Shown here: positions 21,735 through 43,612 of the stretch, in pieces
Position numbering within the stretch: position 1 is the first letter of the stretch
Layout: each line of letters opens with the position of its first letter
Source of the DNA: Spirogloea muscicola
Lineage: Eukaryota; Streptophyta; Zygnematophyceae; Spirogloeales; Spirogloeaceae
DNA: 45,955 bases
Assembly (NCBI GenBank): GCA_009602725.1
Contig: WELB01000019.1
Span: 32,117 to 78,071, forward strand
Reading direction: 5' to 3'
Made by a program: the position numbers and the translations under genes
Notes under the pieces: model-generated
Databases searched by the model: none
What the model was told of the DNA's origin: nothing
Seen by the model: the letters and a program-made list of their open reading frames with translations, nothing else

Positions 21735-22330
21735 AGCCAGAAAGAAGTGGCACTCCCAATGGGGGCAAGGGCTGCGAAAAGCCAGCCCAAAAAGAATTCA
21801 CGAAGGTTCAGAGGGGCCTAAGAGCGGTGAGCAGCTACAAAGGGGCCTGAGGATGCAATGATAAAACAGGGGGAGGATGGATCACTCAATAAGTACGAGT
21901 GAGGAGCCTCAGATCCGACAGACTAGCTGCCAGGAAGCTATCACCCTGACGAAAGCCAGAGCCCGCAGCGAGAGCACGGCCAGCTCGCAGATGCAGAGCG
22001 TGGGCCATGGACCGCTGCAGGGATACAGAGAGGCGCATCCGATATACCTGAGCCCACGAGCCCGCGGCGTTGAAGTCGGCTGGCTCGCCACGTCTGCGGG
22101 ACACAGCCCGCCGCGCAAGCTGAGCCAATAGGTCAAGCCACTGGGACCCAGGAGCCCCGTGCACGTCCACCGCCAAGGGGACGAACTCGTCGGCAGGTGG
22201 GTGGTCGGAGTGCTTGGCCGCCTTGCAGCGAGCGGCCTTCGAGGCAGCGTGGCCGGCCCGCGAGGCAGAGAGCCCCAGGTTGGAGCGGTCGACCACATCG
22301 GTGGTGACTACATCGGCCAGAGAGAAGGCG
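21735..22330 (-). mobile_element. Well-preserved LINE-like 3' fragment with type I tail
   Basis: The longest preserved copy on the minus strand. It reads, in order, TTDVVDRSNLGLSASRAGHA, the segment DEFVPLAVDVHGAPGSQWLD, LLAQLARRAVSRRRGEPADF, YRMRLSVSLQRSMAHALHL, RAGRALAAGSGFRQGDSF and SLSDLRLLTRTY with a stop at 21888-21886. About 85 bp of 3' UTR leads to GGGCTGGCTTTTCGCAGCCC, TTGCCCCCATTGGGAGTGCC and ACTTCTTTCT at about 21740. The open frame of about 137 codons, and close similarity to the copies at 27055 and 43228, suggest recent activity of this subfamily. By family knowledge this is the C-terminal end of a non-LTR reverse transcriptase protein; the RT domain itself is absent. Confidence 0.8.
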
Positions 22331-34036: not shown

Positions 34037-37000
34037 TCAACCTGCAATGCATGCAACCAAGTGCTTCCTTCCATCCCTGCATTCTCCCCTGGCATGTCTG
34101 AATGCTCTCCTCAGCAACGCAAGGCCATTCTTGAGGGTGTGCTTGGCCACACGCGGTTGACACTGTGAGGCTTGTGCCCGTATGCAACAGCACAGGGGTG
34201 AATAGACTGTCACAATGCTTTCAGCATCACTGCAGGTTACTGAGAATCTTTCGTCCTCGTCCTGCACAGCCTGTCTGAGCACGTCGACACCCTCGCTCCA
34301 ATCGTCTGCAGTTTGCGTATCTTCAATGCCAGAGCCACGCAGTGAGCCTTCGGATGTATCTGCAGTTCTGTCTTGCTTCTCCAACTCAGGCTTGGCGAGA
34401 TCAGCAGCCTTGAACTGCGCAAAGAAGGATGGGGGAAGGACTAGCTTCTCCTGGAGAGAGCCAGAAGCAACAGAGATGGCGGCACTGTTTGAAACAGCTG
34501 ATATGAGAAGCTCCACATGCACCATGGTAGTCACATCGTGGCCATATCCAACTGGAGGTAAGAGCCCCTTATTGCAGCCAAAGTAGTATATGGACTCTTG
34601 AGCTGTTGCTGGATGGAAGTTCCTGTGTCAGTATAGCAGAGGCACAGGTTTTAGGTGATGTTCCACAGTTGCAGTTGACCAGGACAACAAGTAGAGACAC
34701 AGAACAGCAATGCTTAGCTCTGCACCTGCTACTGACTGAGATTCTGAGGATGCTGCATGAAGCCCTGCATTTTCTCAATCAGAGAGTGCGCCATGATGAC
34801 AACGACCATGTCTGGACTCTCTTCTCATACATTCGCAGGTTTCACATGGGTTCTTCAGACCGCTCTTCAGAAAAGGCGCAACAGTACCTCCTTGGTTCTC
34901 CAAGCAAAGCAGCGAGCTTTGCCAGGTCAGGTCGCATGGTTTTGGGGACAATAACCACCAATAATTTTGCTGTCATAGTCATAGGGGCGACATCAGAGGC
35001 TTAAAGAGGGTTGCTACGACAACCAGATAATCTGCACGTGTTCTGCCTCTTATGACTGAATAGCTGATAACCAAGATAAGTTGAGGACATCTGATGCAAG
35101 ACATGACAAAGTGCACCATCTGGTTTGGAGGGGTATGTTTCCTTATTGCATAAGCGCAAGTTTTCAGCGAGAAATACGAGAACTTATTATGCACTGGAGT
35201 TTGGAGCACCATACGTTGCTGCCTCTCATGCTTCACTTCAACTCTTTCTTGCTCCTCAGCAGCTAAGGCCATTGCTAAGGCAGATTGCCCTGCAACAATA
35301 AAGAGCACCGTGTCAAACACCACAATCAAATGTGACGATGCTTCACACCTCTTTCTAAATTGACAGAGACCCCAATAATAGGCACTGCGCAGCACATGCT
35401 TGGATGACCTTGGAGGGCTTGTAGAGCTCCAAGCGCGGCAGAGAACTCTGCGTCCTTCTTCTTTTGGGCACTCTTTCCTTGGAAACTTGCAGAGCCGATG
35501 CGTACGTGGCACTGGAACACTGGCAGATGTGGTGGCCCGTAAGTGGTAGTCGTGTAATCTGGTATCGGCAGGCCGAGCCTCTGCGCCCACGTCTGAAGCC
35601 TACCTTTCATCTTGCCTGAGGCTGGCTGGCAGCAATGATGGAAGTGAGGATTTGACCAAAGCAATCAGCAATCATCAACTTGCACTGCTGCTATTCCGAA
35701 GCAAACTTTCAGCTCCCATCATGAGCCCAAGACTTTGCTCGATGATGGTTGTTTGTATGCATCTCATCAACAACCCAGACAATTGTACTTGGAGTTACAC
35801 ATAGCCAGCAGAGGCTTACTGGGTCATCAGGTGGTTCTTGGACCAATACGCCCACGCACTTGGCTTCTATCAGAGGGATGCAGGACTCAGCAAGGCCTTG
35901 CTTGTCAAGCAATGCGTAGTGCTTTCTCAGGCTAGGCCCAAGTGTTGCCTCTTCCTGAAGAGATCCTTCTGGTCCTTGCCATTTAGTTGCTTGCTCTTGC
36001 ACCATGAACGAGTCTTTGTTGAGAAGTTGAGCTGCTGTGGATGGATGCCAGCCCATATCCTGTAGTGCTTCCTCCACGCTCCCCAGCGATAGAGGCCTTG
36101 CAAAGTCCTGGCCATGTACTCCGCTAACTCTGCCCTCCTCCAGTACCGTCTTGCCAGTGTGCTTAAACGTGAACTACAGGACAAACGTGAGAGACAGCGT
36201 GAGAAATCAAGGACAGCCAGACATGCGAGCCTGCGCCTTGTCTTGGTCCGCGCAGTGGACTTACAGTTAGACCCTGCCAGTCTGGTGGAACAGTAGAGCT
36301 GGCCTCCTCCCAGAAGTCTGAGCTTTGTAATCTGACAAATATGGGAAGGAGGCAGACTGCATCCATTGCAGCATATCTGATCTGCACACCATGAACGAGG
36401 GCCTTAGGGAGCAACATACGATGACAATCAACACATCACAAAAGGTCCTGTGTCATCATCAGGTATGCCCTTCAGGGTGTGGGATCTGGGGTTTCTGTTT
36501 AGGGGTTGAAGGCTTAGGTTTAGGGTTTAAGATCAGAGATATGTGAGTTTAAAGGTCAGTCTCCTTGCTTGGTGCGCCAACAGACTATTGCAGGACAGCA
36601 AGATCAGGACCTGCTGCTCGGAGAGGGGTCGCTGCTCCCAGTCACTCATTCGCACCCGCTTGTCTAATGGTAGACCAAGGGTTCTCTGTCGCAATCAGCA
36701 CAAGGCTGCAAACTTGACATGTAGGTGTGGATACAGTACCAGAATCAGCAAGATGCAAGAGCAAGAGAAAGTGTCAAAGCGCTACAGATAGAGACTGTAC
36801 CGTTGCAAGCTGACTCAGTCCACCCTTCTGTCCCCTGCCAGCTAATGTGTGGAGGTCAAGGACAGGGGTGCACAGGTGGAAGCAGGTGAGCATGGGGTAG
36901 GATGCTGCCAATCTGGCCAAGTCATTGCGGACTCCATAGCCTGTAGACATCCAGCAGAGAAGGTTGCCCTGCCTTCAAATTCCATCCAAGGGTTGCTCTG

Positions 37001-39304
37001 AAACACTAAGACCAATGTCTGACTATTGTTCACCTTGGACTCATCATATTTCTGCAAAGTGCATGAACGACAAGGCGGCCTGGGGGGGAGACTTACCAAG
37101 TTTGAGAATGGTGGAATCCTGAAAGAGTGAATAGAGGCAGTCACCCAACAAGTCGGGCACCTCAGCTGCCAGACGTATGACATCGAAAACATACGCATAC
37201 TCGCTTGTGGCCAGCTGCAGGGTTGCAACCTGTAAATCACAATGCTACAGTGTAAGTTGAAGAATGCACTGCCTTCAATATCAACATATGATGCAGAAAG
37301 ACAATAAAGCGCACAAGCATACCTTGTTCTGGCCCTCTCCCTTTGTGTGATTGGCCTTCCACTCACAGTCTATGCCAACATTTGAAGCCAAGAGGAGTTG
37401 ATTCTTTGCAGCTTGAAGATCTCTGGCTGACTCCACCCAGATGACATGAGCCTCGGGGATAAGGCTCGAAATATGGAGGTATTGGTGGCTTTCTGTGGCT
37501 ATCTTCGCAGCAACTGTTGCAAGCAACAACAGGTCAGATACTTTTGACATAATTCAGACTATGACTGTAATTTTTAAAGCTATAATGCTCAATCTTTGAC
37601 TGCTAGTGCTTACGTGTCTTAGAACTGACAGGCAGGTAGGTGACGTCTCTCTGAAGAATTTATCATACCATCTTCAGGTAGTAGCTCATCCAAGTTATAT
37701 TGGACACAGAGCTCAGAGACTAAGTCTTTGTTGCCAGCATCCAGGGCCAGTGTGGCCTGCAAAAACAGCGAAGTGTGAGCAGCAGCCCAGCAAACCCCTG
37801 CACCAGCATGCAGCACAGATTCCCTCACAATGAGCTCACTGTTGAAATATGCACAGGACTAACAGTGAGGCGCCCACCAAGTAGTGGGCCAGGTCTGCAT
37901 TGCCGCGCACCAAGGACTCAGCAACGTCCCAAAGACCCTTGCCTACGAGCTTCTTGACAGAGCTGCAGGTCAGCATCGCGTGCAGAAATGTGTAGGTGAG
38001 CGCATTTGCTGCAGTCGATTGATCCCTTTGGCTTAGGAAATCAAGAGTTGAGCACCCTGACACTCGGCATTCGGTCAACCTCTGTCAAGCTGGACCAGCA
38101 AACACGAAGTTGACAGTCAAAAGTTCACCTTCTGCGATAAAGAGAGAAGGAGTCTGGAAACTGTTGCTGGAGATGGAAGCGCTCCACAAGTGTGTGGGCA
38201 ACCTTGAATTGGGCAGCAGCCATGCATTGCTCTACTAGCGACATTTGAGCCGCTGCCCCAAGTTGCTCAGCCCAGGCGGCTGCGACCTCGGCTCTGCCTT
38301 CTTCCACCATCTTGGCCAGAATTTTGGTTGATGCCGGCTCCGGTATACCCAATTGCCGCATCAGATCGACTGCACTTGTGTACTCCCTCCCCACCTGTGG
38401 CGAAGCTTTCCGGTCTGTAAGGTCCTCAGCTTGCGGCTGTTGAAAACCCAAGCAAGCTAGAGGAGCAAGCTAGACCAAACCCTGTCACTGAGCCGCTGAA
38501 CAGACATTGCTGCACCTGCCACTTCTACCAGCTTCACTGTGACTTGTCGCGCAACAAGAGTAGTGCTTTTGCTTGCGAGCCTGGCCAAGCTGGCGACAGA
38601 ACGCACCGTCAGCCTGGCCACCAAGTCCTCCATGCCCCCTCGCTGCTGAGCAGGGACGTCGGCGATCGTCACGCCGAACGTGGTGACCAGCCGCACCATC
38701 AACCTGGCATTGAGCTGCATATCGCCGGTGGCGAAGGCGTGAAGCAGCGCAGCGGCCATTGCCCGGGCCTCGGCAGAGTCCGCCTCCCTCCGGTGCGACT
38801 TGTCGACGCGGGAGAGCGCCGAGAGCACCAGGTAGCTCAGGCCCTCCGCAAACGGCGGCTCCAGAGCCTGGACGGCGCGCAGGCACCGCAGGGCGAAGGT
38901 GGCTGGAGCCAATGGCAGCGCCGTTGGGAGCAGGAAGCTCAGATGGTCGCGCAGAGCGTTGAATCGCGCGCCCGCGCCGCCGTGGCCTGCGTGCACGATC
39001 AGTCGTATATTGCCGCCTCAGCGATTACTGAGGACTGGCGCCACTGGGAGCCCCCTCTACTGGCCAGCGGCATTGATATCTGACCACATCTGTCCGCCCG
39101 CTTGCTCGCTGAGCCTGAGCTTATCAGTGGCGCCAGCTCAAGCAACAGATGGTGCGCTGGCTGGTCGGTTGCCGCACCTTCGACATAGGCGCGCTGGAGG
39201 TCCTTAGCGACGGCCTCCGGCGACGCGCCGGCCAACGTGGTGGCGAGCCACAAGCCGTGGCGCTCAACGCCGCCGGCGGCGGTGCCGTCGCTGCGGGAGG
39301 TCAT
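34037..39304 (-). CDS. DEDDy 3'-5' exonuclease (Mut-7/Nibbler-like) fused to a dsRNA-binding and a YbaK-like domain
   Basis: Exons (minus): 39304-39085, 38986-38481, 38436-38129, 37962-37878, 37756-37669, 37513-37323, 37229-37097, 36940-36801, 36685-36611, 36381-36265, 36173-35820, 35625-35409, 35289-35215, 34969-34888, 34622-34037; phases all agree, 1058 residues. Residues 1-430 are helical, as in Mut-7 N-termini. The exonuclease (~445-600) shows VGIDCEW (motif I), GYGVRNDLARLAASYP (motif II), LSEQQ and IRYAAMDA (motif III): the DEDDy metal and tyrosine residues are present. A dsRBD (~745-808) shows LQTWAQRLGLPIPDY, YGPPHLPVFQCHV and KKKDAEFSAALGAL. A YbaK-like part (~837-930) shows LLVVIVPKTMRPDLAKLAAL, LLPPVGYG and SGSLQEKLVLPPSF. 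Likely an RNA-trimming enzyme. The start, the 75-bp exon 35289-35215 and the 3' end are least certain; exon 1 could instead end at an earlier GTGCGG. Two adjacent genes remain possible. Confidence 0.65.
36498..36531. repeat. Telomere-like tract inside an intron of the exonuclease gene
   Basis: TTTAGGGG at 36498-36505 and TTAGGTTTAGGGTTTAAG at 36514-36531, within the intron 36382-36610. The units fit a TTTAGGG-type telomere sequence. Confidence 0.6.
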
Positions 39305-43227: not shown

Positions 43228-43612
43228 TCGCGGCGGGCTGTGTCCCGCAGACGCGGCGAGCCAGCCGACTTCAACGCCGCGGGCTCGTGGGCTCAGGTAT
43301 ATCGGATGCGCCTCTCTGTATCCCTGCAGCGGTCCATGGCCCACGCTCTGCATCTGCGAGCTGGCCGTGCTCTCGCTGCGGGCTCTGGCTTTCGTCAGGG
43401 TGATAGCTTCCCGGGAGCTAGTCTGTCGGATCTGAGGCTCCTCACTCGTACTTATTGAGTGATCCATCCTCCCCCTGTTTTACCATTGCATCCTCAGGCC
43501 CCTTTGTAGCTGCTCACCGCTCTTAGGCCCCTCTGAACCTTTGTAAATTCTATTTGGGCTGGCTTTTCGCAGCCCTTGCCCCCATTGGGAGTGCCACTTC
43601 TCTCTTGTCTCG
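43228..43612 (+). mobile_element. Well-preserved LINE-like 3' fragment with type I tail
   Basis: The plus strand reads SRRRGEPADFNAAGSW, YRMRLSVSLQRSMAHALHL, RAGRALAAGSGFRQGDSF and SLSDLRLLTRTY with a stop at 43456-43458. It continues with GTGATCCATCCTCCCCCTGT, GCATCCTCAGGCCCCTTTGT and GGGCTGGCTTTTCGCAGCCC, ending at GAGTGCCACTTCTCTCTTG. By eye it is nearly identical to the copies at 21735 and 27055 over about 350 bp. The 5' truncation is at about 43228. Confidence 0.8.

Follow-up and report, generated by a model that had tools for sequence, protein, structure and literature searches.

MUT-7 proteins are 3'-5' exoribonucleases, and the N-terminal domain of Nibbler is HEAT-like (PMC11347159). 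In that 2024 Nucleic Acids Research (NAR) paper, most animal members of the family are described as carrying a further domain, MUT7-C, which helps MUT-7 to bind RNA and contributes to its ribonuclease activity, and which was lost in drosophilids, including from Nibbler. Here, we describe a predicted gene on the minus strand of a 45,955-nucleotide stretch of Spirogloea muscicola DNA (contig WELB01000019.1, positions 32,117 to 78,071; "the window" below, within which all coordinates are given). With moderate confidence, the locus is read as a nuclear gene for a MUT-7/Nibbler-like DEDDy 3'-5' exoribonuclease in which a double-stranded RNA-binding domain (dsRBD) and part of an INS/YbaK fold, known from tRNA editing, take the position of MUT7-C. 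We infer the splicing of its exons into one polypeptide, least securely at exons 14 and 15, as well as its substrate and the role of the editing fold.

The gene was modelled by hand as 15 exons encoding 1048 amino acids (model A), separated by 14 phase-consistent GT-AG introns of 91 to 265 bases. Translation would start at the ATG at 39304, and the first in-frame stop ends at 34037; ahead of the start codon, the frame is open from 39556 onward and contains no other ATG. Two further models differ from model A in the donor of intron 13, which is placed at 35088 in model A, at 35037 in model B (1065 amino acids), and at 35214 in model C (1006 amino acids). In the translation, PF01612, PF00035, and PF04073 each scored above the Pfam gathering score. 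An earlier note on this DNA had proposed a single protein from phase-consistent exons between 34037 and 39304. The same coordinates were returned by splice modelling, and the open frame and the three Pfam matches agree with a single protein, whereas the intron 13 join and the C-terminus are not secure. Third-position GC content declines from the 5' end of the gene (0.90 in exon 1, 0.86 in exon 2) to exons 10 to 15 (0.46-0.58).

The exonuclease domain was recognized in the spliced model as DNA_pol_A_exo1 (E = 2.5e-25; 89.7 bits, cut-off 23.6). In an alignment with EXD2 and WRN, the catalytic DEDDy set is present (D399, E401, D465, Y533, and D537), and the motifs singled out in the earlier note (IDCEW, GYGVRNDLARL, and IRYAAMDA) all fall within this one domain. 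The top PDB match was 7jw2, annotated as Exonuclease mut-7 homolog (1.7e-14 when the whole protein was searched and 9.1e-17 for the domain), followed by EXD2 (8e-11 and 7.2e-12, respectively), with WRN ranking after a second mut-7 homologue, 7jw6. The first catalytic D reads A in the mut-7 chains 7jw2 and 7jw6. The exonuclease touched four NCBIfam models but scored far under the cut-off of each (best, 54.8 versus 640 bits). MUT7-C was not matched at E<=1 in the full model, nor at E<=10 in the N-terminal region, the linker, or the tail; as drosophilid Nibbler also lacks MUT7-C, this absence does not exclude membership of the MUT-7 family. Overall, the predicted protein resembles MUT-7, Nibbler, and EXD3 in its top solved relative, its DEDDy residues, and the long, partly helical region ahead of the exonuclease, but differs from them in having a dsRBD and a YbaK-like part instead of a MUT7-C match. 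AT1G56310 and AT5G24340 are presumably MUT-7-like as well.

Canonical dsRBDs are marked by helix 1, a GPxH loop, and a basic start of helix 2. The dsrm match in exon 12 (E = 2.3e-10 and 41.3 bits in the full model, cut-off 23; E = 5.7e-12 when a 100-amino-acid piece was searched) covers profile positions 2 to 66 of 66 and bears out the clear dsRBD of the earlier note. Its motifs GPPHLP (at 717) and QKKKDAE (at 741) resemble those of plant DRB3 and DRB4, and the nearest solved dsRBDs are those of plant DRB4 (E = 5.7e-14) and DRB3 (E = 1.7e-12). Judged by these features, the domain is canonical-looking. It is closest, among solved domains, to those of the plant DRB proteins (DRB2/3/4 and HYL1); unlike the dsRBD predicted here, these are to our knowledge not joined to an exonuclease.

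The third match, tRNA_edit, lies at residues 812-890 of full model A (E = 3.5e-8; 34.0 bits, cut-off 25.5). It derives almost wholly from exons 14 and 15 and corresponds to about half of the profile, with positions 33-96 of 123 covered in model C and 15-96 in model A. When this part was searched in isolation, it scored 36.7 bits in model A, 33.4 in model C, and 32.9 in model B, while six versions of model A in which the disputed stretch 35214-35089 had been shuffled scored 32.2-35.1 bits. The YbaK-like segment of the earlier note stands as far as the tRNA_edit match goes, which includes GLLPPVG, but the N-terminal part of the fold is barely supported because the scores of the shuffled versions overlap the range of the models. 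Donor 35214 of model C removes the very stretch that would form this N-terminal part.

The YbaK-like part was far under the NCBIfam YbaK cut-off (15.5 versus 153.25 bits). On its own, it gave no noteworthy PDB sequence match, the best being an acrosin at E = 0.8. A profile built from the best 80 of 403 confirmed bacterial and archaeal relatives gave no match with default filters; with filters off it scored 8.5 bits (E = 0.014), compared with at most 4.2 bits in 200 shuffles. Aligned to the same profile with hhalign, the model A stretch reached a probability of 88 (E = 3.1e-6). A sub-profile built from the N-terminal half did not place model A or the disputed stretch among the best 22 open stretches of the window.

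Whether these domains belong to one gene was assessed from codon and splice-site scores. Leave-one-out codon scores were positive in the stated frame for all 15 exons, and this frame was the best one in 14 of them, exon 14 being the exception, while 2 of 42 intron frames scored above zero; the background was trained on the introns of this same gene, so the test leans toward the model. Splice sites were scored with matrices trained on introns 1 to 10 and are ranked below as a share of all GTs (donors) or AGs (acceptors). The sites of intron 12 are strong (donor, top 5%; acceptor, top 0.1%), and those of intron 14 rank in the top 12.5% (donor) and the top 19% (acceptor). Introns 1 to 10 also include poor sites, such as the donor of intron 9 (top 61%) and the acceptor of intron 1 (top 47.5%) in leave-one-out scoring, and a weak score by itself therefore does not reject a site. 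For intron 13, the donor of model C scored 5.4 bits, compared with 2.0 for model B and 0.3 for model A. Likewise, codon scores changed from +10 bits at 35289-35215 to -3 bits in frame at 35214-35089. Exon chains of one or two exons were enumerated between the fixed end of exon 12 and start of exon 15, and among the 4432 frame-open chains, model C ranked 10th, model A 132nd, and model B 187th. The nine chains outranking model C all lose the strand that matches tRNA_edit, and model C is first among those keeping exon 14 whole. These scores lend fair support to the exonuclease and the dsRBD being encoded in one gene; the connection between the dsRBD and the YbaK-like part is weaker.

Several observations weigh against a single MUT-7-like gene of the proposed extent. 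The N-terminal region was not recognizable as the HEAT-like domain of MUT-7 in sequence and fold searches, and 7jw6 (6.4e-9) ranks behind EXD2, so the MUT-7 tie amounts to one best match. With a codon model from exons 1 to 12, exon 14 scored 0.1 in frame versus 3.6 in another frame. Intron 13 is poorly supported in every model, the donor of model A ranking in the top 63% and its acceptor in the top 49%. In-frame ATGs are found at 35610, just ahead of the dsRBD, and at 34982 and 34976, just ahead of exon 14, and separate genes starting at 35610 or at 34982/34976 may be compatible with the sequence. TGTAA, a poly(A) signal of green algae, occurs at 36265 and, within intron 11, at 35799, with none between 34037 and 33000; a five-base word of this kind should turn up by chance several times in the 6.5 kb that were searched. 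One alternative built on these observations is a pair of genes: the MUT-7-like exonuclease would end beyond exon 11, at the stop at 35711-35709, and a dsRBD/YbaK-like gene would start at ATG 35610. The dsRBD would then begin almost at its start codon (M693), as in plant DRB proteins, and reading on from exon 11 meets no stop for 36 codons, with the TGTAA in intron 11 nearby, although it lies ahead of the stop. However, exon 11 scores +21 in frame, whereas reading past 35820 through these 36 codons costs -12 bits, which speaks against the exonuclease ending there. Furthermore, only about 100 bases separate the stop from the next ATG, and the sites of intron 11 are fair and in phase (donor 35819, top 23%; acceptor 35626, top 11%). 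We consider two such genes unlikely. A doubtful alternative, which leaves the exonuclease and the dsRBD in one gene, is that exons 14 and 15 belong to a YbaK-like gene fragment, separate or decayed, lying behind it. The lack of convincing splice sites for intron 13, the ATGs ahead of exon 14, the limited profile coverage that is left without the doubtful stretch (33-96 of 123), and the codon scores of exon 14 and the end of exon 15, which are not coding-like, are all in its favor. Yet exon 13 must continue into a further exon, frame-open links to exon 14 are available (such as 35214 to 34970, the model C link that ranked 10th), and there is scant room for a promoter.

A fusion of the exonuclease to a working aminoacyl-tRNA deacylase, which would make the protein a tRNA quality-control enzyme that edits as well as trims, is in our view very improbable. 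A conserved lysine is common to the INS-superfamily deacylases, as is a GXXXP loop (PMC11286415). Like YbaK, ProXp-ala, and ProXp-7/MCP3, the part encoded here scores above the tRNA_edit gathering cut-off and keeps the GXXXP loop; unlike in these proteins, only part of the fold is secured and the conserved lysine was not found with confidence. Among the 80 aligned relatives, all 79 with a residue in the lysine column have K, whereas both MAFFT and hhalign place His819 there in model A, and in model C the stretch that would bear the lysine is absent and may not be exonic. In some eukaryotic INS members, an insert follows the catalytic lysine, and if the same were true here, Lys802 in SLKTCAY could occupy the lysine position under a by-eye alignment. 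Other conserved positions are altered as well, namely the T of TG (80 of 80 relatives) and a D (79 of 80). With the lysine column thus read as His819, as a differently aligned Lys802, or as missing, we do not class the protein as a deacylase, and the editing activity suggested in the earlier note is unsupported. The editing-fold part preferred here, within a MUT-7/Nibbler-like exoribonuclease, is probably non-catalytic.

Around and between the domains, no Pfam match at E<=10 was found for residues 1-365, for the 118 residues of exon 11, or for the tail from residue 928. Exon 2 by itself was predicted as six helices with a predicted local distance difference test score (pLDDT) of 69, and this fold had no PDB match at E<=0.001, while exon 11 gave no confident fold (pLDDT, 42). 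At the 3' end, the codon score is negative from 34201 on, and the last 54 codons (34201-34037, minus strand) score as non-coding; the C-terminus of the protein, or the 3' end of the gene, may lie elsewhere than 34037. The coordinates of all parts are collected in Table 1.

Table 1. Predicted parts of the exonuclease-dsRBD-YbaK-like gene, in window coordinates
Feature	Position	Strand	Basis
Whole predicted gene, 15 exons	34037..39304	-	Splice and phase modelling
Exons 1-5, N-terminal region, helical in part, without Pfam match	37669..39304	-	Pfam; fold of exon 2
DEDDy 3'-5' exonuclease domain (PF01612), exons 6-10, residues 375-549	36325..37442	-	Pfam; PDB
Exon 11, 118-amino-acid linker without match	35820..36173	-	Codon score; Pfam; fold prediction
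dsRBD (PF00035), exon 12, residues 694-758	35413..35607	-	Pfam; PDB
Exon 13 in model A; coding look limited to 35289-35215	35089..35289	-	Codon scores; donor scores
Exon 14, YbaK-like (tRNA_edit, PF04073) stretch KLLVVIVP...LAALLGEPRR	34888..34969	-	Within the tRNA_edit match of models A, B, and C; codon score does not favor this frame
Exon 15, first part: remainder of tRNA_edit match, GXXXP loop G873-L-L-P-P877	34514..34622	-	Pfam; alignment
Exon 15, remainder: C-terminal tail, last 54 codons doubtful	34037..34513	-	No Pfam match; codon score

Relatives were sought in collections of prokaryotes, viruses, and plasmids, in which empty results say little for a eukaryotic gene. Among prokaryotic genome contigs, the whole protein gave five pattern matches, none of which was confirmed. 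In viral contigs, the dsRBD-YbaK part gave three pattern matches, again with none confirmed, and the exonuclease gave no match; the YbaK part was likewise not matched in plasmids. A literature search, covering mostly open papers and best matches, returned no published report of an exonuclease combined with a dsRBD and a YbaK domain, and no paper in the searched literature joined YbaK to a MUT-7 exonuclease or ProXp to a dsRBD. The terms "ybak", "dsrbd", and "alga" do not occur in the 2024 NAR paper on MUT7-C (PMC11347159). Both tRNA_edit and DNA_pol_A_exo1 are mentioned in a paper on Escherichia coli RNA-binding proteins. DNA_pol_A_exo1 and dsrm are named together in two papers, and a passage of one of them assigns the names to different proteins. 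"Mut-7" in a Chlamydomonas paper is the number of a mutant strain and not the exonuclease. Annotated algal proteomes may well already contain the three-domain combination without its having drawn comment. The new part is likely the combination itself, with the exonuclease, the dsRBD, and the editing fold each of a known kind.

Elsewhere in the window, open stretches at 2-553 and 643-891 on the plus strand match DnaJ (6.3e-9) and the ferredoxin-type family Fer4_13 (1.1e-6), a pairing that is known in green plants and algae and fits the green-algal (chlorophyte) source assumed in the earlier note. On the minus strand, 6889-6260 matches HSP70 (1.1e-98). The hexapeptide DLDLHL, which we take to resemble an LxLxL (EAR-type) motif, stands directly ahead of the stop in two minus-strand open reading frames (44698-44681 and 25143-25126). 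These are its only occurrences in the six frames, their codons differ at silent positions, and the two reading frames are otherwise dissimilar (best BLASTP match between them, E = 5.4). Repeats include a 377-nucleotide inverted pair at 98% identity (21739-22115 and 43229-43605), a 300-nucleotide direct pair at 97%, and a 92-nucleotide family with five copies at an identity level of at least 62%. Such interspersed repeats are perhaps the remains of mobile elements. The open stretch 16077-15790 on the minus strand looks by eye like a retrotransposon reverse transcriptase and had no Pfam match at E<=0.01.

The domain order suggests how a protein of this kind could work. Behind a partly helical N-terminal region, an intact exonuclease would be followed by the dsRBD and part of an editing fold. 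The dsRBD would hold duplex or hairpin RNA, such as small-RNA precursors or structured tails, and the exonuclease would trim the free single-stranded 3' end, while the editing-fold part, without deacylase activity, may help to hold the RNA end or a partner. The structure-guided RNA trimming proposed in the earlier note follows fairly from the joining of a MUT-7/Nibbler-like exonuclease to a canonical-looking dsRBD. Its tRNA substrate was a guess; tRNA is a possible target, for which the fold is the basis. A role in small-RNA trimming, as predicted from the domains, is attractive and has a known competitor. In a 2019 review, the trimmer of unmethylated plant microRNAs (miRNAs) is called uncharacterized, and RRP6 is cited as a partner of MUT68 when unmethylated miRNAs decay in Chlamydomonas (PMC6445950). 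As RRP6 has already been cited in this process, an algal trimmer of the kind proposed here would be a second or alternative one.

In its boldest form, the proposal would be that a green-algal branch of MUT-7 has replaced MUT7-C with a dsRBD and a tRNA-editing fold that is catalytically dead, giving an enzyme that is guided by duplex RNA and trims the 3' ends of small RNAs or of small-RNA precursors. We regard this as a speculative and rather improbable extension. MUT-7 family enzymes shape the 3' ends of small RNAs in animals, and a relative with its own dsRBD would be a direct candidate for such a trimmer in an alga. If true, the placement of an editing fold beside a nuclease and without its chemistry would mean that a tRNA-proofreading fold has been reused in RNA processing.

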